A stretch of 20,569 nt of DNA, from positions 1 through 20,569 of the IMG/VR virus record IMGVR_UViG_3300032291_000530; one strand, given 5' to 3'. The stretch's first letter is position 1, and every line of letters begins with the position of its first letter. Shown one piece after another: positions 383 to 11,893 of the stretch. The notes below the pieces were generated by a model, which searched no databases, was not told the origin of the DNA, and saw only the letters and a list, made by a program, of their open reading frames with translations. This DNA comes from a virus. The position numbers and the translations under genes are program-made.

Positions 383-526
383 CTACTTAGCCAATAAGTA
401 AAGTCCTACATTTGAGAAAGCATAACCCGCATAGACAATAGCCATGTGTGGGTTATCTTTCCATAGCTGTTCACCAGCAATATATGCGTAGATTGCACCC
501 GTCAAGATGATTAGCCAAGCACTCAA
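383..526 (-). CDS. 47-aa small two-helix membrane protein (TTG start)
   Basis: This short frame begins at TTG 526-524, overlapping the TGA of the metallophosphoesterase gene (523-525) as TTGA. AGGTG lies about 4 bases upstream of the start. The product has two hydrophobic stretches, residues 2-18 (SAWLIILTGAIYAYIAG) and 28-46 (MAIVYAGYAFSNVGLYLLA), separated by a polar loop EQLWKDNPH. That predicts a helical hairpin in the membrane with both ends on the same side. The stop TAG (383-385) lies one base from the convergent plus-strand gene. No family is recognised. The small size, the two helices and its place at the end of a lysis/late operon would suit a holin-like or superinfection-type membrane protein, but that is inference. 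The frame was judged real from overlap, ribosome site and composition. Confidence 0.65.
   Translation of the reverse strand: MSAWLIILTGAIYAYIAGEQLWKDNPHMAIVYAGYAFSNVGLYLLAK
422..456. other. Hairpin near the convergent operon junction
   Basis: An inverted repeat pairs ATAACCCGCATA (422-433) with TGTGTGGGTTAT (445-456). This gives 12 pairs including two G-T wobbles, with an 11-base loop. It lies inside the 47-aa minus-strand gene and about 40 bases beyond the stop of the last plus-strand gene. It could slow or terminate transcripts arriving from the left, since it is followed by a weak T run (CTTT). There is no proper U tract on either strand, so a terminator call is not secure. Confidence 0.35.
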
Positions 527-1509
527 AATGCACCTACATCAATCACTTCACCCCTAAACTGAACCATATCCTCATCAAATTTATGGACGAGTTCAGGCCA
601 TAAAAGCTGACCATTGAAGAAGTTTAACACCGCAAATCCTGATCTGTGGTTGTTAGGATTTATTTCGGCATAAGTAAATTGTGGGCCATCTGTTTCAGCC
701 AAAGTCCCCGTATCTACCCCGTATCTGCATCCGTTATAGTCAGAGAATGGAGTGACCTTTAGAGAGTGCAGATGCCCTGTCACTACTGAGACACCAGCGT
801 TTACAGTATTGTTGTGAGTGGCATGAACACCACCTTTGTATCGGTGCTTGATAATGACCTGCTCGGTAGGCCATACTGCCCAACAAAAGTCCCAATCTGG
901 GATGTGGTCTGTCAACTTAAACCCCTGAACTTCTTTAAACTGTGGTGCGTGTTGGGCTAATCTATTGCCAAACCGAATATCGTGATTGCCCCACGTAAAC
1001 AGTAGCTTTACATTGTGTCTGGCAGCTTTAGCGGCTTCCTCAATCTCACCCAAAGCCCCCTGACAAGCCTTTAACTCTTGAATAACAGAAGTCTGTGGTT
1101 GGTCAGTTACATCATGGCGAGATATAGACGCCCCATCAAAGGCATCCCCGTTACATACTATTGCCTTGGGTTTGAACTGTTCTATAGCCCATAGAAGTCC
1201 TTTAAAAGCAGTTGTTCGTTGACCAGGTATGAAGTGGGCGTCAGAGAAGACAATTACAGTCCCATCTAAGATGCCAAGTTCTATTTGTTTAAGTGGGCTA
1301 AATGATTTAGGTTTGTTTTTATCGTATTGCAAACCACGATGGTCACTTGCGGTAAGTGCCATGTTGTAGGTTTTCTCAATAAACCTTCTGCGTAAATGAA
1401 CAGCTCTATTGTTTATTCCTAAATGTTTAGCTATTTTTGTAGCAGATTGAAATTGTCCCCATAGTTGGATGAACTCCATATCTGAACAAGTTTCATTATG
1501 TGCGCCCAT
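523..1509 (-). CDS. Metallophosphoesterase with N-terminal helix-turn-helix
   Basis: This is a 328-aa calcineurin-like phosphoesterase. The dimetal-site motifs appear in order: SDAH (89-92, D90 and H92), NGDAFDG (120-126, D122), GNHD (174-177), H229 in GVHATHN, and GHLH (245-248). Ahead of the enzyme domain, residues about 22-43 (ATKIAKHLGINNRAVHLRRR) read as a helix-turn-helix, so the protein may bind DNA through its N-terminus. The family hydrolyses phosphomono- or diesters, and phage members can be nucleases or phosphatases. The substrate cannot be told from sequence. The ATG start has AAGGA upstream and overlaps the 3' end of the peptidase-like gene by 14 bases. The downstream 47-aa gene starts inside its stop codon. 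Function in DNA processing is inference. Confidence 0.85.
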   Translation of the reverse strand: MGAHNETCSDMEFIQLWGQFQSATKIAKHLGINNRAVHLRRRFIEKTYNMALTASDHRGLQYDKNKPKSFSPLKQIELGILDGTVIVFSDAHFIPGQRTTAFKGLLWAIEQFKPKAIVCNGDAFDGASISRHDVTDQPQTSVIQELKACQGALGEIEEAAKAARHNVKLLFTWGNHDIRFGNRLAQHAPQFKEVQGFKLTDHIPDWDFCWAVWPTEQVIIKHRYKGGVHATHNNTVNAGVSVVTGHLHSLKVTPFSDYNGCRYGVDTGTLAETDGPQFTYAEINPNNHRSGFAVLNFFNGQLLWPELVHKFDEDMVQFRGEVIDVGAF

Positions 1510-1870
1510 TGGAATCCTTAGACAATAACTTTTCTAAAAGGTTAATGACTCTATGCTCTTGCATTTCAACCTCATCTTGAGATGATTTAGGGTCTTGAGC
1601 CACAGTCATCAAATCGTGCAGAAACACATGAAGCAACTCATGTAAAGCAGTCTGATCCAGAGATTCTGGTGTGATCTTTTCAGCACCAAAATCACCTAAT
1701 CTATAAGTAGCCAATCGAGCAGAAGTATTGAACTCCACAGAAGCCATAGCCGCCTTTGCCGCTTTGCTTCCCTTCTCTATTCTCCAATCACCCAAACTCA
1801 AAATTTGCTGCCATTTTCTGACACTTTGTGAGAACAGTTTTACATCATCTGGCGTAGGAATGTTAGGCAT
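1496..1870 (-). CDS. Putative HExxH zinc metallopeptidase (SprT-like)
   Basis: The 124-aa product contains HELLHVFLHD at 77-86, a HExxH zinc site (H77, E78, H81) inside a predicted helix. H85 and acidic residues about 20 positions on (EMQEH, 102-106) are candidate third ligands. Small proteins of this shape occur in many environmental phages and resemble SprT or phage-encoded Zn peptidases. The sequence before the motif (WRIEKGS, then alternating beta segments) fits a minimal metzincin-like fold. AGGTG lies 5 bases upstream of the ATG. It follows the endolysin by 35 bases and overlaps the phosphoesterase gene. The target protein is unknown, and the catalytic call is from the motif only. Confidence 0.7.
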   Translation of the reverse strand: MPNIPTPDDVKLFSQSVRKWQQILSLGDWRIEKGSKAAKAAMASVEFNTSARLATYRLGDFGAEKITPESLDQTALHELLHVFLHDLMTVAQDPKSSQDEVEMQEHRVINLLEKLLSKDSNGRT

Positions 1871-1905
1871 TTCAACACCTTATAGCGTTATTATGACATT
1901 TTAAT

Positions 1906-2409
1906 TTAAGACAGAAACAAAGCTACTTCTGCTTTGCGTCTTTTGACAAGCCCTGAAACCTCTTTCCCACCCGCTTTAGTCCACGACATGAAAGCCTCGG
2001 AAGCGCCTGTCCAATCCTCACGATTGACCTTCATCCGAATGGTAGAACGCTGATAATTTCCTAGCCCTGCATTGTAGGCAAAAGAGACAACAGCATCGAA
2101 TTTGCTTTGATGACTAACAAGATTAGGGCTAAGTCGAAGAACACCACGTTCAAAAGAATTGATGTCCACCTTGAATAAATCGACCAGTTCCTCTTTTGAC
2201 CATACACGATTATCTTCCCCCTTGAGTTGGTAATCAGACCTGATAAGCCCTGTATAACCCTCTTTACGCACGTTTGGAAGGTTTAATTGGTCAGCATACA
2301 TAGCGTGACCCCACCCAACAGTCCAAATAGCCGCAGAACAGCGATAAGGCTTGTTCCTGTAGCCTTCAAAGAAGTGCATTAGGTGTTCGCCTTCTTTGCT
2401 GATCTTCAT
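1906..2409 (-). CDS. Endolysin, GH24 lysozyme (T4/P21 type)
   Basis: This 167-aa lysozyme should cleave the MurNAc-GlcNAc bond of peptidoglycan at the end of infection. The GH24 catalytic pattern E-x8-(D/C)-x5-T is present as E15, C24 and T30, within FFEGYRNKPYRC and TVGWGH. This is the Cys variant of the triad. Further family features are FDAVVSFAYNAG (about 104-115) and the C-terminal GLVKRRKAEVALFL. No signal peptide or SAR anchor is visible, so export should depend on a holin. Its length is normal for the family. The ATG overlaps the stop of the upstream holin gene by ATGA, which indicates translational coupling. Confidence 0.93.
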   Translation of the reverse strand: MKISKEGEHLMHFFEGYRNKPYRCSAAIWTVGWGHAMYADQLNLPNVRKEGYTGLIRSDYQLKGEDNRVWSKEELVDLFKVDINSFERGVLRLSPNLVSHQSKFDAVVSFAYNAGLGNYQRSTIRMKVNREDWTGASEAFMSWTKAGGKEVSGLVKRRKAEVALFLS

Positions 2410-2909
2410 TTCTTAGCCCAACCTCTTGATCCGAACCAGAAACCAATGATTCCACCCAACATCGCCATCTCATCAGTAGAGAAAATGATGTCTGACAAGC
2501 GAATCAAATCATCCATGCTCATCACCAAACTAGGGCGAGAGTAGATGTAGTAGGCAATCCAAGCATTGATAGCACACAACTCAAACACAAAGATATAGGT
2601 AACTGTAGGTCTTACAGTACCGACATAGTTAGCAACCCATTGAGAAGCCTTCTCTAAGACCTTCTCATCGTGTTTTAAAGCCGCCTCGGTCATCTGTGCT
2701 TCAGACTGCATGGCAACTTGGTCTGTGCGAATCTCCTCCATACGCTCTTGGGCAGCAAAGCCTTGAGCCATCATCTGAAGTTGCATCTGAACTTGGATGT
2801 TAGCCAAAGCTAATTCATGCTTTTGGTCTGCTTTATTTTGAAAGAAGTCTAATAGTTTTGGTAGACCCGAAATGAGCAAACCGCCAAGAGTTGAAAATAG
2901 AGAAAGCAT
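2406..2909 (-). CDS. Holin, 3-TM (GTA holin-like family)
   Basis: The 167-aa protein has hydrophobic segments at about 2-22, 103-123 and 146-161. A long charged, Gln-rich helical region (24-92) separates the first from the second. The signature VRPTVTYIFVFE near 99-110 and the ending GGIIGFWFGSRGW match the 3-TM holin family described from gene transfer agents and many environmental phages. It would form inner-membrane lesions that release the endolysin, whose gene starts within its stop codon (ATGA). AGGA lies 6 bases upstream of the ATG. The 91-aa membrane-protein gene is 2 bases upstream. Confidence 0.85.
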   Translation of the reverse strand: MLSLFSTLGGLLISGLPKLLDFFQNKADQKHELALANIQVQMQLQMMAQGFAAQERMEEIRTDQVAMQSEAQMTEAALKHDEKVLEKASQWVANYVGTVRPTVTYIFVFELCAINAWIAYYIYSRPSLVMSMDDLIRLSDIIFSTDEMAMLGGIIGFWFGSRGWAKK

Positions 2910-2911
2910 TA

Positions 2912-3187
2912 TCAGTCCTTACATTTAGATTTATCGTCACCTTGCATGAGTTTTACCCCAGACAAAAAGCCAATCATACCGCCAACAATTGTTTGAAATG
3001 CTGGCCCAATCAAGGCAAAAATAGAAGCGTTATCAACCTCTTTTGCCCACAATCCAACTAAAAATGCACCAACCATTGCCAACATACAAAGGCATAAAGT
3101 TGTTGAAACAATCATAGTGACATAAAAAGTCAACTTCTCTTTAGTGTCTGAAATTGGTTTGCGTAAAGTGCGTGTCGGTCTATTCAT
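2912..3187 (-). CDS. Small two-helix membrane protein, possible second holin or antiholin
   Basis: The 91-aa product has a basic N-terminus (NRPTRTLRKP), a hydrophobic helix at about 21-47 and a second, Gly-rich helix at 55-79 (GPAFQTIVGGMIGFLSGVKL). A hydrophilic tail with one Cys follows. The arrangement resembles class II holins, but I do not recognise a defined family. It lies directly upstream of the 3-TM holin and overlaps the stop of the 78-aa gene by ATGA. An accessory lysis role, such as antiholin or pinholin, is inferred from context only. Confidence 0.7.
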   Translation of the reverse strand: MNRPTRTLRKPISDTKEKLTFYVTMIVSTTLCLCMLAMVGAFLVGLWAKEVDNASIFALIGPAFQTIVGGMIGFLSGVKLMQGDDKSKCKD

Positions 3188-3420
3188 ACATAAACATCCA
3201 GTTTACGATTATTAAAAATCTCAAGCCTTATTTCTTGTTGTTCTGCCTTCTTACAGTACAACTCAAATAGCAAGTCATCTAACTTATCCTCTGCTTTAGC
3301 AACTTTGACTATGGCTCTGTGTTCTTCTTGAAACTTCTCTATGCGTCTTTGAGTGCCATCAGTTTTCTGAGGGTAGCCAGTAGCATCAACAATGGGAAAC
3401 CACCTGATTTTGTCAATCAT
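3184..3420 (-). CDS. Hypothetical 78-aa protein in lysis cluster
   Basis: No family is recognised. The protein is soluble and highly charged. Residues about 24-70 are helical with heptad-like spacing (RRIEKFQEEHRAIVKVAKAE, then DDLLFELYCKKAEQQEIRLE), suggesting a short coiled coil. It has one Cys and no signal peptide or membrane helix. GGAG sits upstream of the ATG, and the start overlaps the stop of the secreted-protein gene by ATGA. It is encoded between predicted envelope proteins of the lysis cluster, but nothing in its sequence states a role. Confidence 0.65.
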   Translation of the reverse strand: MIDKIRWFPIVDATGYPQKTDGTQRRIEKFQEEHRAIVKVAKAEDKLDDLLFELYCKKAEQQEIRLEIFNNRKLDVYV

Positions 3421-3704
3421 TTCTTCTCCCTCTCAAGTGCGTTCTTATACCCTTGAATAACCTTATGTCTCAACAATGCACTATCAGCAGTCCCTGCCCA
3501 TTCCGATAAGTTATTCCAAATTACAATCATGTCGGTACTTTTACATAAGTCCTGATGATTTGTAAGCCAAACAGACATTTGTTGATGACGCTCTGATGGG
3601 TTGTGGATTGTCCAAGCAATAGAATAAAACTCACGCACACTACATAGGTCTTTGCCTGTGGAATGAAGTGCTAGAGTTAAAACAAGTGCTAATAGCCATC
3701 TCAC
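3417..3704 (-). CDS. Small secreted or membrane-anchored protein (95 aa, GTG start)
   Basis: From the GTG at 3704-3702 the protein begins MRWLLALVLTLALHSTGK, a compact signal-peptide-like or anchor sequence. About 77 polar residues follow, with two Cys (CSVREF and LCKSTD) that could form a disulphide in the periplasm. There is no lipobox. A TTG at 3716 would add four residues. I prefer GTG because it overlaps the TGA of the upstream 30-aa gene as GTGA, the same coupling used elsewhere in this cluster, and because it gives a better signal sequence. It has no recognised family. Its position before the holin and endolysin suggests a part in envelope disruption, which is inference. Confidence 0.65.
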   Translation of the reverse strand: MRWLLALVLTLALHSTGKDLCSVREFYSIAWTIHNPSERHQQMSVWLTNHQDLCKSTDMIVIWNNLSEWAGTADSALLRHKVIQGYKNALEREKK

Positions 3705-3793
3705 GGGTACGCCCAAATTATGATGTAACTACAAAAGACGACAAAAGCAGAAAAACAGACTGCGGCAATAAATGCAAGCAGCCAGTCTTTCAT
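3701..3793 (-). CDS. 30-aa single-helix membrane micropeptide
   Basis: A short frame runs from ATG 3793-3791 to TGA 3703-3701. It follows AGGGA by 5 bases; this ribosome site overlaps the last codons of the transglycosylase gene, whose TAA ends one base upstream. The product is a charged MKDW start followed by one long hydrophobic helix (residues about 4-27, including AAVCFSAFVV and YIIIW) ending in AYP. Its stop overlaps the GTG start of the secreted-protein gene. Tight spacing on both sides and a good ribosome site support a real gene. No family is recognised. A small single-pass membrane peptide here could modulate lysis, but that is a guess. Confidence 0.65.
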   Translation of the reverse strand: MKDWLLAFIAAVCFSAFVVFCSYIIIWAYP

Positions 3794-3794
3794 G

Positions 3795-6263
3795 TTAGTC
3801 CCTAAAAAAGTCTAACAAACCTGTTGCATTAGGAAAGAAGTTTTCTGGATTAGTTGTTGCGGCATTTACGCCCTGACCAATTGCACCCCCCATGCCACCC
3901 GCACCTTGAAGTTGCTCACCAAGTAAGAATCTAGTTCCACCAGTACCACCCAATACGTTACCCAATCTGTTTGCCATAGGAGGAGTTAAGCTTGCTCCAA
4001 GTAAACCACCAGCCGCTAGTCCAGTAGCGCCATCAATGCCAAACATTTGAGCAAGTTGATTCCCCGTTGCCGCACCCATTCCAGTTGTTGCAAGTGGAAG
4101 TAATACCGCACCTGTTTGTGGTCCGACTTTAGGTGTAACAGCACCACGGGTTGTATCAACAATGTCTCTCAATAAAGTGACTTCATCTAACAATTCTGGA
4201 TTGTTTGCAAATGCTGTACGTTGTGGAGTTGGTGCATCTGGTCTGCCAAGATTTAATGTTCTTGTAAATGCAGGAGCTGAAAATCCAGTAGCTGCATCTG
4301 GATTAATAGCTTTGTTTCTAGCTTCATTAAGAATAGAGTATTGAGCCGCTTGTTTACCAACGGGCGACATCAAATTAACCGCAAGCTCTGCTGTTGCAGG
4401 GTTAGTGTCAAAATTAAACTTTTGAGCCGCCAAATCAACATCACCTGCACCTGATCTACTAGACACAAGTTTGTAAATATTGGGATCATCACGAAACGGC
4501 AAAACAGTCGCTTTAAACTGGTCAATAGCTTTGGTATGTTGTGCGCCAGCAGGTGTAAATAATCTAACACCATTTTCATCAATAGCGGGTGCAGCCCATA
4601 CATCCACATCGTCAGCCATACCTTTGTATAACTGATTAATTGCGTTAACTTGTTTTTCGTTGTAAGAGCCAGGCACTACGCCTTTACGAACACGCTCCAA
4701 CTCTGCAAAAACTGTAGATTGCAAGTCACGAAGTTCTTTGTAAGAACCACCACCACTTTGGCTTAAAGCATCTAACTTTTCTATTGTTTTTTCAATAATA
4801 GGAGTTTGTGAAGTAGATGGGAACTGCTTTACAACATCAAGTTTTGCTTGATTGGTATTTCGTAATGGAATGATGTCATCACCAGCCAATATTTCAGCTT
4901 GTTTAAACTCAGGATTAACATTGTCTTTTGCAGTCTTGTATTGTTGACGCAAATCATCAGCAATAATCTTCTTCTCACCGCCATCCTTCATTCCAGCAGG
5001 ACGCAACTTATCAGTAGTTCTTTCAATCAAACTCTTTACTTGGTTTGATTTAGTTTGATTTGCTGTTTCTGTTGTAAAACCAAATTGACGGGCTTTAGTA
5101 AGAGTTCCTGCGCCTGGGCCACCAACATCACCAACATCTACATTAACACCACGTTGTGCAGCAGATTCAATAATTTGACCTGTAACTGGATCACGATAAC
5201 GTGTGCCAGAAGGAATGTTTCCTGCACGTGCCGCAACAGCACCCGCAGGTAGACCTGTTGCCAAGTTAATTCCAAGCAATGCTAATGGGTTTTGAATATC
5301 AAAAACATTTCTAGCAATTTCAGCAGAGCCAGTACCTACTGTTGCACCTGCTGCTTGTGCAATAGGTTGAGCTGCCAAACCACGCCCAACAACCTGAGCA
5401 GTTAAATTAGGAGCTTGTTGTAGCAAACCACCAGCGCCACCCATTACGGGAATACCTGCTACTGCACGAGTAACATTGGCAATTCCTTTTTGGAAATTAG
5501 TTTCTGGTTGTGGCAAACCAAGTAAGTTAGCAAAGTTTGACATTGCTTGGCTAGGATTTTGGAGCTGACTACCAGTAGCCCTGTTAATCAACATATTTAA
5601 TGGTGATCCAACAATGTCAGCAACTCCACCCATGCCTTCCAGACCATATCGAATTGTTCTACCAACCTCGTTTACAGCTTGGTTGCCTAAACGATTAAAA
5701 GCAGTACTTTGAGGTGCGGGAGCTTTTGCAACAACTGGTTGTCCAATCATTGAAGGATCAATTTCACGAAAACCACGATTTTGATCTGTAGTAGCTATGC
5801 CTCTTAAATCAATTTTAGGAGCTTGTTGTGGCAGTTGACCAATAAATGAGTGATCAATATCTCTATATGTTGCCATTTTTGTACCTACAACTTTCTCAAC
5901 ATAGTCTTGCGTTTCTTTAAATGGAGGAACTCCACCATACTTTTCAACATTACCTGGACCAGCGTTATAAGCAGCCGCAACCAAAGTAGGATCTTGGAAT
6001 CGTTCTGTTAACTGGCCTAGATACTTAACACCACCTCTGATGTTATCTTTCCATTCCATTCTATTAACACCAAGATCTTTTGCAGTAGCACCCATTAATT
6101 GCATAGGACCATAGGCACGATCACCAGTTCGTGTTTTAGGTCCAATGGCGTTAAAGTCGCCCTTAGATTCTGTTTCAACAATCTTCTGTACCAAAGAATA
6201 AGGAACGCCTTGCCTTTGGGCTTCTTGCCTAGCAAATTCGTAAACTTGTTCTCTGGTTGCCAT
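3795..6263 (-). CDS. Internal virion (ejection) protein with N-terminal lytic transglycosylase domain
   Basis: This is an 822-aa protein. Residues about 1-130 form an SLT-type lytic transglycosylase: the catalytic Glu in VETESKG (E32, before Ser as in the family), AYGPMQLMGATAKDLG (50-65), NIRGGVKYLGQL (74-85) and AAAYNAGPGNVEKYGG (96-111). The enzyme cuts peptidoglycan with 1,6-anhydro ring formation. The remaining 690 residues are not recognised. They include Ala/Gly-rich hydrophobic stretches around 255-350 and 715-790 that could contact membrane, and a charged helical middle. A transglycosylase domain at the start of a large late protein, last of three in a row, resembles T7 gp16, which enters the cell envelope during DNA ejection. 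The ATG shares its A with the upstream stop (TAATG). Confidence 0.85.
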   Translation of the reverse strand: MATREQVYEFARQEAQRQGVPYSLVQKIVETESKGDFNAIGPKTRTGDRAYGPMQLMGATAKDLGVNRMEWKDNIRGGVKYLGQLTERFQDPTLVAAAYNAGPGNVEKYGGVPPFKETQDYVEKVVGTKMATYRDIDHSFIGQLPQQAPKIDLRGIATTDQNRGFREIDPSMIGQPVVAKAPAPQSTAFNRLGNQAVNEVGRTIRYGLEGMGGVADIVGSPLNMLINRATGSQLQNPSQAMSNFANLLGLPQPETNFQKGIANVTRAVAGIPVMGGAGGLLQQAPNLTAQVVGRGLAAQPIAQAAGATVGTGSAEIARNVFDIQNPLALLGINLATGLPAGAVAARAGNIPSGTRYRDPVTGQIIESAAQRGVNVDVGDVGGPGAGTLTKARQFGFTTETANQTKSNQVKSLIERTTDKLRPAGMKDGGEKKIIADDLRQQYKTAKDNVNPEFKQAEILAGDDIIPLRNTNQAKLDVVKQFPSTSQTPIIEKTIEKLDALSQSGGGSYKELRDLQSTVFAELERVRKGVVPGSYNEKQVNAINQLYKGMADDVDVWAAPAIDENGVRLFTPAGAQHTKAIDQFKATVLPFRDDPNIYKLVSSRSGAGDVDLAAQKFNFDTNPATAELAVNLMSPVGKQAAQYSILNEARNKAINPDAATGFSAPAFTRTLNLGRPDAPTPQRTAFANNPELLDEVTLLRDIVDTTRGAVTPKVGPQTGAVLLPLATTGMGAATGNQLAQMFGIDGATGLAAGGLLGASLTPPMANRLGNVLGGTGGTRFLLGEQLQGAGGMGGAIGQGVNAATTNPENFFPNATGLLDFFRD

Positions 6264-7765
6264 TAGTCATAAACCCGATAAGCGCCACTAGGCAGTTGAT
6301 AAGCTGTTTTGCCTTTATCAGGACCAGCAGTAACTTGGAACTGAGGCAAATACTTACGCAAGCCTGGTGCTTCAAACATTCCCCGTTGACCTTGTGGAGA
6401 TGCTTCCCATTTACGAATAGCATCAGGACCTGCATTTTTAGGATCAGAAACAAAGTTGTAGTACTCTTGCTTACGCTTATTTGCTTCACGCAAAACTGCT
6501 AAGTTAAAGTTTGTTGATTCTTTAGGGTCTGTAATCTGAGCATTACGCTGACCATAGTAACCAATTTCAAAGTTAGAAATAGCACCAACAGCTTCAGTCA
6601 AACTTTCACCAGTTAGAGCATTTACACCTTGACGAGCAGAAATACCGCTAGTTAAGAATTGTTTAGTCCTGTCTCCAGATACACCCAAACTATTGAAGAT
6701 GTTTCCTAGCTTTAACCTAATGTCTGTAAATGATCCTGTATCAAAATTTGGATCATTAAAAGCATTTTGTAATTGGTCAATTACAGGAGCAGTCTTTTTA
6801 GCTGTTTGATAACCTTTGTAAGCATCAGCAAGAATTGGCTTAAATGCTTCATTCAAAGCTGTTTGAGCAGTACTAGGACCAGTTTCTGGCTGTACAACAG
6901 CTCCACCCTGACCTTGCATAGCAGGTGGGGTAACAAATGTATATGTAGGAGCACCAGTTGACGTTGTAGATGCACGAGGAATATTGGCCTCACGTGCCGC
7001 AGTTTCAGTTCTTGTTCTTGCTGCTAACGCTTCCAAAGCTCCATTAGCATTAACAATACCAATTACATTTCGGTTGTTGTCAAAAGCGTACTGCTCACCT
7101 TTTTGCAACTCAGGCAATGTGTTAAGTGCAGCAGCTTGAGCAGCACCTGGCAACACGCTTGTCTGAAAAGATGGTTGTCCATCTATCATTGTTCCTGTTG
7201 TAACTGTGCCAGCTTTTGTGTCAATTTTAGGAGCAAAACCAGTAATATTGCCACCTGGAGCAACAACATAACCATCTTGCAGTTTAGGTTGCATAGCCGT
7301 CAAAGTATTAAGCAATTGTGGTTGTGCGGGGTTTCCTGCCAAACGCAAAGATTCTTTTAGTGCTTGTTGATAGTCAATTGGTTGATTAACTAACTGTGGC
7401 TCTACTCGACCTAATGGTGCGCCTAGTTTGTTTGCTAAAGAATAAGGACTAGATAAGTCTGCTTCCCTACCCAAAGTGGCATTCAATGCTTTTCTAGTTG
7501 CTTGTTCTTCAGTAGGAGCAAACCTACTAGTAAAGTTAGCAAGTTCTTGTTGTTGTCTATTTGCAATCTGCGAATCACGAATCATCTTCTGCATATTCAA
7601 TGAAGTAGATGGGATATCCATTGCAGACTTAAAGCCCATAGCGGGATCACCACTTAACAAACTTCCCAACAAGAACTGTTGAGTAGCTTGCTTTTGCATT
7701 GATTCTTTTTCAGTATCAGTCAATCCCGTCAATGCGGCATCAGATAACAAACCAATATTAAACAT
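6263..7765 (-). CDS. Probable internal virion (ejection) protein, 500 aa
   Basis: I do not recognise a named domain. The protein is rich in Ala, Gln, Thr and Asn and mostly helical by eye, for example MQKMIRDSQIANRQQQELAN near 58-77 and a helical region around 310-440. An ordered, Gly/Thr-rich middle lies between (about 160-275). It has no signal peptide or obvious membrane helix. AGGAG precedes the ATG. The gene sits between the repeat-rich 417-aa gene and the transglycosylase gene, with a 1-base overlap to the latter. Three adjacent large late proteins of this composition, the last with an SLT domain, parallel the ejection proteins of podoviruses (T7 gp14-15-16, P22 gp7-20-16). Assignment is by position. 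Confidence 0.6.
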   Translation of the reverse strand: MFNIGLLSDAALTGLTDTEKESMQKQATQQFLLGSLLSGDPAMGFKSAMDIPSTSLNMQKMIRDSQIANRQQQELANFTSRFAPTEEQATRKALNATLGREADLSSPYSLANKLGAPLGRVEPQLVNQPIDYQQALKESLRLAGNPAQPQLLNTLTAMQPKLQDGYVVAPGGNITGFAPKIDTKAGTVTTGTMIDGQPSFQTSVLPGAAQAAALNTLPELQKGEQYAFDNNRNVIGIVNANGALEALAARTRTETAAREANIPRASTTSTGAPTYTFVTPPAMQGQGGAVVQPETGPSTAQTALNEAFKPILADAYKGYQTAKKTAPVIDQLQNAFNDPNFDTGSFTDIRLKLGNIFNSLGVSGDRTKQFLTSGISARQGVNALTGESLTEAVGAISNFEIGYYGQRNAQITDPKESTNFNLAVLREANKRKQEYYNFVSDPKNAGPDAIRKWEASPQGQRGMFEAPGLRKYLPQFQVTAGPDKGKTAYQLPSGAYRVYD

Positions 7766-7774
7766 ATAAACTCC

Positions 7775-9028
7775 TTAACCAATACCTAACAAGCCAAGCA
7801 AACCTTGTCTTGATGTAGATGTTTGTTGTGTACCAGAACCACCACCAACATTGATGCCTAATGCTTGGTTGAGAATCTGTTGTTGTTCCAAAGGTAAATT
7901 GCGGATTGCATCAAGTTGAGCTTGTGTAAGACCTTGTTGAATAGCTCCAACATCTGCAAGTGCTTTAGCACCAGTAAGACCCATTTGTTGACCGCCTTGA
8001 GCAATGTTTGACATTTGGTTGGCGGCAGCAATACGTTGTTGGTTGGCAGTTAAACCCGCACCCTGATTAGCCAACATAGCTTGTTGAGCATTCTGAGTAT
8101 TGAGTTGACCAGTACCAAAGTCCATACCTTGATTGGCAATTTGCGCTCTTAAATTAGCTTCTTGGTTAGCCAAATTAACAGCATTCCTTAACTGTGCATT
8201 TGATGTCATTGCCGACAAATCAACACCTTGGTTTGCCAAGTTAAATTGACCCGCAAGTTGTAGACCTTGTGCAACAGTAGCGGCATCAACACCTTGATTA
8301 GCCAACTGAGCTTGCATTGAGCGAGACAAATCAGCCTCAGAAAGCCTAGAAGCAGCATCAAATCCAGCTTGTCTTTGTTGGGCAATCATTCGTGCAGTAT
8401 TTTCATCATAAGCACGATTAGTCTCAGCCTCAGTTACACCTTGGCGAGATCCACCAAATGATCTTGCGGCAGCGGCTTTAGCGGCATCAACAGTTCTTGC
8501 TTGTTGTCTTGAACGCTCTAAATCTGCAGCTCCTACATCAATAACACTCTGTGTATATGGATTCATATAACTTTGAATGTTCTGATTTAAGAATGAACCA
8601 GGTGTTATATCCTGAATAGCGCCACGGGCTAAAGATGCAATGTCATTAACACCCTGTGCGGCAACATCTTTTCCAACAACATCCCGAATGTCGGCACGAT
8701 TGATCTGTGCGGCAGTAGCGGCTTGATTGGCTACATCACGTATAGATCCACGATTTAACGTAGCACCAGTTACGTTTAAAGGACTGTATGCAGCAGCACC
8801 TGCGGCTTGATCAAAAGCATTACGCATACCCCCAAAATATATATTATTGGGATTTGCAAACTGCCCTGTAGTTTGAAATGCCGCTAGTTGGTCAGGAGTA
8901 AATCCCGCAAACTGACGAGCCGTTAATCCAGATGCAACGTCTTGTGCGCCTTGATAATTACTTTTAAATAAATCAAGTAATTCAGGATTTAATTGTTGCT
9001 GACTTGAGCTTCCACCACCTAGAGACAT
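7775..9028 (-). CDS. Probable internal virion (ejection) protein with 11/22-residue repeats
   Basis: This 417-aa protein is very rich in Ala, Gln and Asn. I place the start at ATG 9028-9026 (MSLGGGSSSQQQ): AGGGG lies about 6 bases upstream and the upstream gene stops one base before it. A longer frame from 9064 would overlap that gene by 35 bases. Residues about 30-230 are helical and polar, with ARSFGGSRQGVTEAE near 188-202. Residues 242-340 carry an (L/I)ANQG repeat in an 11/22-residue register. The C-terminus is Gly-rich, ending GLLGLLGIG. No Cys or signal peptide is seen. The composition and the location next to the SLT protein suggest the smallest of three ejection proteins. This is inference. 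Confidence 0.6.
   Translation of the reverse strand: MSLGGGSSSQQQLNPELLDLFKSNYQGAQDVASGLTARQFAGFTPDQLAAFQTTGQFANPNNIYFGGMRNAFDQAAGAAAYSPLNVTGATLNRGSIRDVANQAATAAQINRADIRDVVGKDVAAQGVNDIASLARGAIQDITPGSFLNQNIQSYMNPYTQSVIDVGAADLERSRQQARTVDAAKAAAARSFGGSRQGVTEAETNRAYDENTARMIAQQRQAGFDAASRLSEADLSRSMQAQLANQGVDAATVAQGLQLAGQFNLANQGVDLSAMTSNAQLRNAVNLANQEANLRAQIANQGMDFGTGQLNTQNAQQAMLANQGAGLTANQQRIAAANQMSNIAQGGQQMGLTGAKALADVGAIQQGLTQAQLDAIRNLPLEQQQILNQALGINVGGGSGTQQTSTSRQGLLGLLGIG
8009..8305 (-). repeat. Protein-level 11/22-residue repeat, (L/I)ANQG units
   Basis: Within the 417-aa protein, units starting LANQGVD, LANQGVD, LANQEAN, IANQGMD and LANQGAG begin at residues 242, 264, 286, 297 and 319. The spacings are 22, 22, 11 and 22. 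A degenerate unit (NIAQGGQ) follows after another 22. The regular 11-residue step suggests a continuous amphipathic or hendecad helix. The DNA copies have diverged, so this is an old protein repeat rather than a recent tandem duplication. Confidence 0.8.
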
Positions 9029-9029
9029 A

Positions 9030-9500
9030 TCATTCCCCTTGTATCCATTTAATTGCATCATCATGTGAGGTGAAATACCGCCACATTTCTGTACTAGTTT
9101 CTCTCATTGCTTCTTTACCTCTGAGCAATAAGACTATCATTGGTGCTATTTGTAATGAAATAATACGCAATGTGAGCGCATAGGCTCTGTCGTTGGTATT
9201 ACCATTTTCAAGTTCTACAGAGTCTTGCCAAGCATTTATACTCTGAATCACTAAAGGCATTAAAAATGACCTATTTTGATTAAAGAACTCATTTGTCGGT
9301 AACGTCACCAAAGCATTCCAAAAGACAGTATCTATCTCTTTTCTAGTAGGCTCTTTGTCTTTATCTACCAAGTCATCCCATAACTCAGCAATACCCGATA
9401 AAGCAACTAAAAAGTCTACGGCACTTTGGTTGCCACCAAACCATTCTAACAGTTTGGCATTCCTTATTTGACGCCAATCTTCAGTATCATGTTCTATCAT
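9030..9500 (-). CDS. Hypothetical helical protein, 156 aa
   Basis: No family is recognised. The sequence is largely helical with many Trp (WRQIRN, LLEWFGG, ELWDDLVD, FWNALVTLP, INAWQDS, MWRYFTS). It has a moderately hydrophobic helix near the C-terminus (LTLRIISLQIAPMIVLLL) that could be buried or membrane-associated, and no Cys. I use ATG 9500-9498; a TTG at 9515 would add five residues, and neither has a clear Shine-Dalgarno. It lies between the probable tail hub gene and the ejection-protein genes, and ends one base before the start of the 417-aa gene. A structural or assembly role, such as a chaperone for ejection proteins, is possible but unsupported by motif. Confidence 0.6.
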   Translation of the reverse strand: MIEHDTEDWRQIRNAKLLEWFGGNQSAVDFLVALSGIAELWDDLVDKDKEPTRKEIDTVFWNALVTLPTNEFFNQNRSFLMPLVIQSINAWQDSVELENGNTNDRAYALTLRIISLQIAPMIVLLLRGKEAMRETSTEMWRYFTSHDDAIKWIQGE

Positions 9501-11668: not shown

Positions 11669-11893
11669 TTATTTTTTAAGTAATGTCTGCCAAACAGCAC
11701 CTGCCGCCACTATCAAACCACCAACCCATAGAATAGGCTTGGCAGCAGAGGCAATCCATCCCAAGACCTTAAAAGCCCCATCAAGAGCCTTTATAGCCTC
11801 TACAAGACCTTTTGTGTTCTTGTCTATTTCATCTACTTTATGCTCTACTGTGAGCAGTCTTTCATAGATCTGTTCGTGAGTGACGTTTTCCAT
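11669..11893 (-). CDS. XhlA-like small membrane protein (coiled coil plus one helix)
   Basis: The 74-aa product has an N-terminal amphipathic coiled-coil (residues 5-40, heptads in IYERLLTVEHKVDEIDKN) and one hydrophobic region at about 43-70 (LGWIASAAKPILWVGGLIVA), ending LLKK. This layout is that of haemolysin XhlA-type proteins, which act with holins in some phages and prophages. The 3-TM holin lies about 9 kb away in the lysis cluster, so this gene is unusual in sitting among fibre genes. Its ATG follows directly on the stop of the polyglycine gene. An accessory lysis role is likely by family. A membrane-associated virion part is an alternative. Confidence 0.65.
   Translation of the reverse strand: MENVTHEQIYERLLTVEHKVDEIDKNTKGLVEAIKALDGAFKVLGWIASAAKPILWVGGLIVAAGAVWQTLLKK

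Follow-up and report, generated by a model that had tools for sequence, protein, structure and literature searches.

The window analysed here, a 20,569-base virus record (IMGVR_UViG_3300032291_000530) from a freshwater phage whose capsid protein has matches to many Pseudomonas phages, carries on its minus strand an operon transcribed in the order micro30, p95, p78, p91, p167 and a GH24 lysozyme. Four of its five junctions are 4-nt overlaps (GTGA or ATGA) and the remaining one is a 2-nt gap. The head gene, micro30 (3701–3793; ATG at 3793, TGA at 3703–3701), encodes a predicted 30-aa single-helix membrane micro-protein (MKDWLLAFIAAVCFSAFVVFCSYIIIWAYP), an assignment drawn from conservation, ω and KD19 values. 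Its stop codon is part of a GTGA junction (3701–3704) at which p95 (3417–3704), a 95-aa protein predicted to be exported, begins with GTG 3704 and without a Shine–Dalgarno (SD) sequence. The original prediction of a 30-aa single-helix peptide with its TGA inside GTGA was right in coordinates, sequences and junction. The 78-aa soluble p78 (3184–3420), for which a Pfam search returned nothing above cut-off, starts at an ATGA overlap with the p95 stop and follows p95 in most loci; the start of p91 (2912–3187), a 91-aa two-TM holin-like protein with a weak match to a holin family (phrog_1527, E = 0.015), overlaps the p78 stop in turn. The 167-aa p167 (2406–2909; phrog_6637, function unknown, E = 3.7e-15; phrog_1544) is a holin-like protein whose position and membrane segments suggest that role; it had been taken for a 3-TM holin, and a 19-residue Kyte–Doolittle scan gives no clear 3-TM protein. 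The endolysin (1906–2409) is a GH24 phage lysozyme (PF00959, E = 4.8e-32; phrog_7) with, by eye, no N-terminal signal, hydrophobic stretch or SAR; it also resembles a Bartonella gene transfer agent model (NF058676, E = 9.9e-25, far below that model's cut-off). Some 8 kb upstream of micro30 the window encodes p74 (11669–11893, minus strand), a coiled-coil and TM protein that is found upstream of micro30 in many relatives and, at locus L048, directly before p95 without micro30.

micro30 is a protein-coding gene under purifying selection. The family comprises 98 distinct sequences, with exactly 30 codons in 107 of 124 copies, and micro30 ends at the same p95 overlap in the window and in 77 of 80 p95 homologues from IMG/VR. 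Copies beside p95 give ω = 0.33 (p = 3e-13; 35 independent pairs of close sequences) and copies away from it ω = 0.24 (p = 4e-13). For copies found with a DNA pattern covering residues 1–11, codons 12–29, which lie outside the pattern, give ω = 0.44 (p = 6e-6). Frame 0 never contains a stop, this being a condition of selection, and frame +1 always does. In the alignment the family sequence is MKDWAxAFIAAA...W: M1 and D3 never vary, W4 and A11 hardly ever do, and in the p95 context A7, W27 and A28 are invariant as well. The carboxy terminus varies with the partner gene (IIIWAYP or IVWAMT before p95), which may reflect co-inheritance or contact. The protein is one strongly hydrophobic helix (KD19 maximum 2.59) whose amino terminus carries two or three polar residues. 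It has no Pfam or NCBIfam match, and a single member of 24 matches a PHROG holin family (phrog_198), at E = 0.058 only. The AGGGA noticed ahead of its ATG is present in the window but is not conserved, an SD match of at least 4 nt preceding the micro30 start in 12% of relatives.

A scan of IMG/VR found 432 p95 relatives, of which 80 were kept; their start codon (GTG in 77, ATG in 3) always falls on the same residue. With a second scan the set rose to 101 distinct p95 loci, window included, where GTG (92) or ATG (nine) again occupies that residue. Several ATG homologues have an in-frame stop (TGA) directly before the start codon, so a longer protein is impossible there. For both reasons p95 starts at GTG 3704 and not at TTG 3716, as had been predicted from the junction. 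TTG 3716 is ruled out by start-codon conservation at 3704 and by variation of the TTG itself, a triplet at −12 that derives from the TGG codon of micro30 Trp27 and is CTG in 6/89 loci. The accompanying claim that the GTG start makes a much better signal sequence does not hold: comparing the two starts, the hydrophobic core (WLLALVLTLAL), the one positive charge and the STG-K cleavage site are identical.

Among the 92 GTG starts, 89 overlap micro30 and three overlap an unrelated gene of 214–249 aa. An SD match of at least 4 nt within the 15 bases upstream is present at 2% of p95 starts, compared with 32% of random 15-mers of the same DNA and 59–93% for the genes from p78 to mpe; in the wider p95 family it accompanies 0/18 coupled and 17/31 uncoupled starts. 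Because its start has no SD and shares 4 nt with the micro30 stop, p95 is most likely translated by termination–reinitiation, with the ribosome that ends micro30 starting again; this would tie p95 output to that of micro30. Elsewhere, 13 of 14 overlapping gene pairs tested were strictly coupled (PMC6728339). The missing SD, the almost invariant overlap and the coupling of several different genes to micro30 would also be expected if micro30 were a mere leader ORF, supplying ribosomes to the start codon after it and coding for an idle peptide. We regard that as very improbable, given that the amino acids of micro30 are under purifying selection away from p95 too (the ω of 0.24 above) and that MKDW...F.AA is kept across different downstream genes.

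p95 itself gives ω = 0.235. Its predicted cleavable signal peptide (approximately residues 1–17) is retained throughout the family, and relatives have A-x-A-type cleavage sites (GATAK, GAVAK, WASAK and VLAQQ), in agreement with the earlier view of the GTG-started protein as exported. The hydrophobic core is too short for a membrane anchor (KD19 maximum 1.23), and the protein has neither a lipobox nor a C-terminal TM segment. Cys21 and Cys54, the only cysteines common to all of 34 representatives and invariant in them, plausibly form a disulfide in the mature protein. An AlphaFold2 model (mean pLDDT 89) is composed of helices 3–15, 23–32, 36–53, 56–73 and 76–94. Foldseek matched it to no solved structure at E below 1, and VIA-align gave a best Z of 6.6, to designed and repeat helical bundles, a value no higher than helical models would be expected to give; the only significant fold matches are three unnamed phage proteins. 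At the sequence level p95 has no PDB match at E = 10, the best PHROG match for any member has E = 0.0043 (unknown function) and scans of bacterial genomes returned no p95 relative. Three proteins of uncultured Caudovirales phages in BFVD (A0A6J5Q980, A0A6J5QTX3 and A0A6J5PMF2; 30–38% identity) and UOF82387.1 from MW202825 (38.7% identity) are related to p95 and have no assigned function; all relatives are metagenomic. Neither protein gave anything significant against Pfam, PHROGs, NCBIfam, PADLOC or PDB, which bears out the statement that they match no known lysis protein, and we found no description in the literature of a phage micro-protein like micro30. p95 is a protein without a name in any library searched, and we claim no known-family membership for it or for micro30.

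As a rule, p95 loci have the synteny micro30–p95–p78–p91–p167–lysozyme; p249 takes the place of p91 in some of them, and L367 and L410 have replacements for both p167 and the endolysin. Of 38 micro30 loci found by pattern and continuing for at least 3.5 kb beyond the gene, 29 have an endolysin motif (GH19, GH24 or GH108) in the 5 kb downstream; none of 40 loci has one in the 5 kb upstream. Pfam searches on examples confirmed GH19 and GH108. The pair thus sits at the head of a lysis cluster, as first proposed, and the presence of three unrelated endolysin classes argues for a role in lysis and against hitch-hiking with one enzyme. We hold it highly likely that micro30 and p95 are real, coupled lysis-operon genes with the locations given here. 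At L374, p167 and the endolysin are separated by a 161-aa protein starting MTIGIYAVVNTQNGKAYIGSSKHIELRL (3466–3951) that by eye resembles a GIY-YIG endonuclease.

The two genes are also found apart. Eight of the 101 close p95 relatives have no micro30 and start with ATG after a 67–77-aa coiled-coil/TM protein or similar; three p95 loci, MW202825 among them, have the GTGA overlap with p249 in place of micro30, and at L078 p249 sits between micro30 and p95. The divergent p95 of L367, used as a query, yielded 71 further loci, most of which have no adjoining micro30 and an ATG start (starts here were picked by a heuristic, a few rows having no assigned start). Homologues of this kind, ATG-started and without the upstream micro-frame, are what the original prediction had named as evidence against a pair. 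micro30, for its part, lies ahead of no fewer than six other, unrelated genes. Those that follow it include p95, a 38–51-aa secreted protein, 148–166-aa C-terminally anchored proteins, p152, p150 and p249, and the junction is in most cases again a 4-nt overlap. L396 shares p167, lysozyme, p124 and phosphoesterase genes with the window, and comparison of its positions 5918–9149 with window positions 523–3793 shows two otherwise collinear operons with p95–p78–p91 exchanged for p41–p158–p49 between micro30 and p167. In MW202710, the 30-aa hypothetical protein UOF80813.1 is a micro30 homologue (MKDWLLSFMAAASLIGLTIWTVKIMIEVLK) followed by a 158-aa C-terminally anchored protein and not by p95. micro30 therefore recurs as the head gene, with p95 as one of several interchangeable partners; since each occurs without the other, they are separate parts of a mix-and-match lysis toolkit and not the dedicated two-component unit that had been envisaged. 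An obligate micro30–p95 pair is ruled out.

The 38–51-aa secreted family that follows micro30 (L355, L357, L361, L385, L396 and others) has the motif EYRC(T/V)RWxWxGDVYNRxVxCxxW, also written RC(V/T)RWxWxGDVYNRxVxC, with two cysteines and a mature length of about 27 residues; a 41-aa member of this RCVRWxW family had no match in the phage collection. Such free swapping of partner genes, and the combination of a small secreted protein with a membrane peptide, would suit superinfection exclusion or another envelope change that precedes lysis and is not part of it. The constant place of micro30 before holin and endolysin genes makes this improbable; the lack of a PADLOC match for either protein weighs little, as PADLOC holds defence systems.

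A spanin-like function had been raised for the pair as a speculative possibility. The λ Rz/Rz1 and T1 gp11 spanins are indeed comparable, as small overlapping genes for envelope proteins located next to those for holin and endolysin; micro30 and p95 differ from them in having no lipobox or outer-membrane lipoprotein and an overlap of only 4 nt. Neither protein is an outer-membrane lipoprotein with a lipobox, as an o-spanin is. p95 also departs from an i-spanin, having a predicted short cleavable signal and not an anchor (KD19 maximum 1.23, A-x-A-type sites in relatives, short helices), and from a unimolecular spanin in its lack of N-terminal lipoylation and of a C-terminal TM. A six-frame lipobox scan that finds the lipoproteins in L167, L184 and L198 found no lipobox ORF in any frame of the window; six long p95-bearing contigs (G001 to G006) and the complete 34-kb MW202825 contain no credible lipoprotein, their matches being short, chance-like ORFs as judged by eye. 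Because p95 has neither lipobox nor C-terminal membrane segment, and because no credible o-spanin or u-spanin lipoprotein is found in the window or in these seven genomes, neither protein is a spanin by definition; spanin membership is ruled out, and a dedicated spanin-like two-component unit is not supported. An 82-aa ORF with ATGC occurs in G017, a 54-kb contig outside G001 to G006.

p95, with or without micro30, might instead replace spanins through a non-classical disruption of the outer membrane. The absence of lipobox ORFs from the window and of credible ones from the p95-bearing genomes would fit this, as would the arrangement in L167, where a nested Rz/Rz1-type pair occupies a position similar to that of p95–p78, ahead of a p91 homologue and endolysin. 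Approximately 13% of surveyed phage genomes, LUZ24 and PaP3 included, are without spanins, their route being open (PMC6139136). p95, however, lacks both a lipid anchor and a C-terminal TM, micro30 loci with p41 (L184, L349 and L357) also carry lipoprotein and i-spanin-like genes, and the outer membrane may need no spanin. MW202710, which has micro30 and no p95, likewise contains no credible lipoprotein, so this absence is not confined to genomes with p95. We accordingly consider it quite unlikely, possible but not favoured, that p95 replaces spanins. As no credible spanin is found in the scanned p95-bearing genomes, the cassette offers concrete candidates for outer-membrane opening or lysis timing. 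The nested i-spanin/o-spanin pair of L167 (2380–3200, o-spanin lipobox LTGC) is unannotated, as is the p91 homologue before the endolysin of MW202520 at the same locus; at L198 (3001–4802), two p67 copies enclose a lipoprotein gene together with an i-spanin-like gene in which a lipoprotein ORF is nested.

Being very short, hydrophobic, probably membrane-spanning and encoded in a lysis operon, micro30 resembles pinholin S21 and other small holins. It could on this basis be a minimal membrane-permeabilising peptide, holin- or pinholin-like, with p95 as a coupled passenger; its single strongly hydrophobic helix within 30 residues, its run of small residues (FIAA) and its occurrence with unrelated endolysins are all consistent with such a role. 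We find this doubtful. micro30 has one helix where S21 has two TM domains, and the endolysin here is cytoplasmic, with no SAR domain or signal sequence, so that a large hole would be needed. Moreover, the operon already has two candidate holins in p91 and p167, and micro30 has no family match above threshold, the lone PHROG holin hit (1/24 members, E = 0.058) included.

Taken as a whole, the data are best explained if micro30 and p95 are separately inherited accessory proteins of a modular lysis operon that act at the envelope, a reading to which we give a probability of about 0.45. Ribosomes finishing micro30 would reinitiate on p95; micro30 is predicted to cross the inner membrane once and to have hardly any soluble part, and p95 to be exported by Sec and processed by signal peptidase I at about residue 17. 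Mature p95 would then be a small helical periplasmic protein, probably closed by the Cys21–Cys54 disulfide, and the two would act at the envelope when lysis occurs, micro30 inside the membrane itself and p95 on the periplasmic side. Their most likely task there would be to tune the triggering of the holin, much as antiholins like T4 RI do. Regulation of the holin by p95 is our leading guess, a tentative one made by analogy, because RI provides a precedent for a small exported helical protein that acts on a holin. RI, a small antiholin located in the periplasm, has a cleavable signal peptide and binds its holin (PMC8385771); p95 is a phage protein of similar size with a predicted cleavable signal peptide and predicted periplasmic location. 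The two differ in context, p95 belonging to a holin–endolysin operon with no T-like holin: p91 and p167 are not like T4 T, and p95 has no constant holin partner. The cysteine positions of RI differ from those of p95. We found no sequence match between p95 and RI or any antiholin, and none among the fold matches listed. More speculatively, and unlikely in its entirety, micro30 may be the founder of a widespread group of freshwater-phage lysis proteins, 30-residue single helices that regulate or assist holins, with the coupled gene (p95, the 41–50-aa RCVRWxW peptide or others) supplying an exchangeable envelope factor, possibly for the outer-membrane step that is missing in phages without spanins.

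In the lysis operons of environmental phages, many small genes are missed by gene callers or given a wrong start. micro30 has only 30 codons and is nonetheless conserved, selected, tied to three unrelated endolysin classes and coupled almost invariably to p95, a predicted exported protein. UOF82387.1 (L001 = MW202825.1, 3989–4222) is one such case, annotated too short and without a signal peptide; its true start is most likely the GTG at L001:3950, which forms a GTGA overlap with the upstream gene and adds the signal peptide VRWWWISIILLCV.
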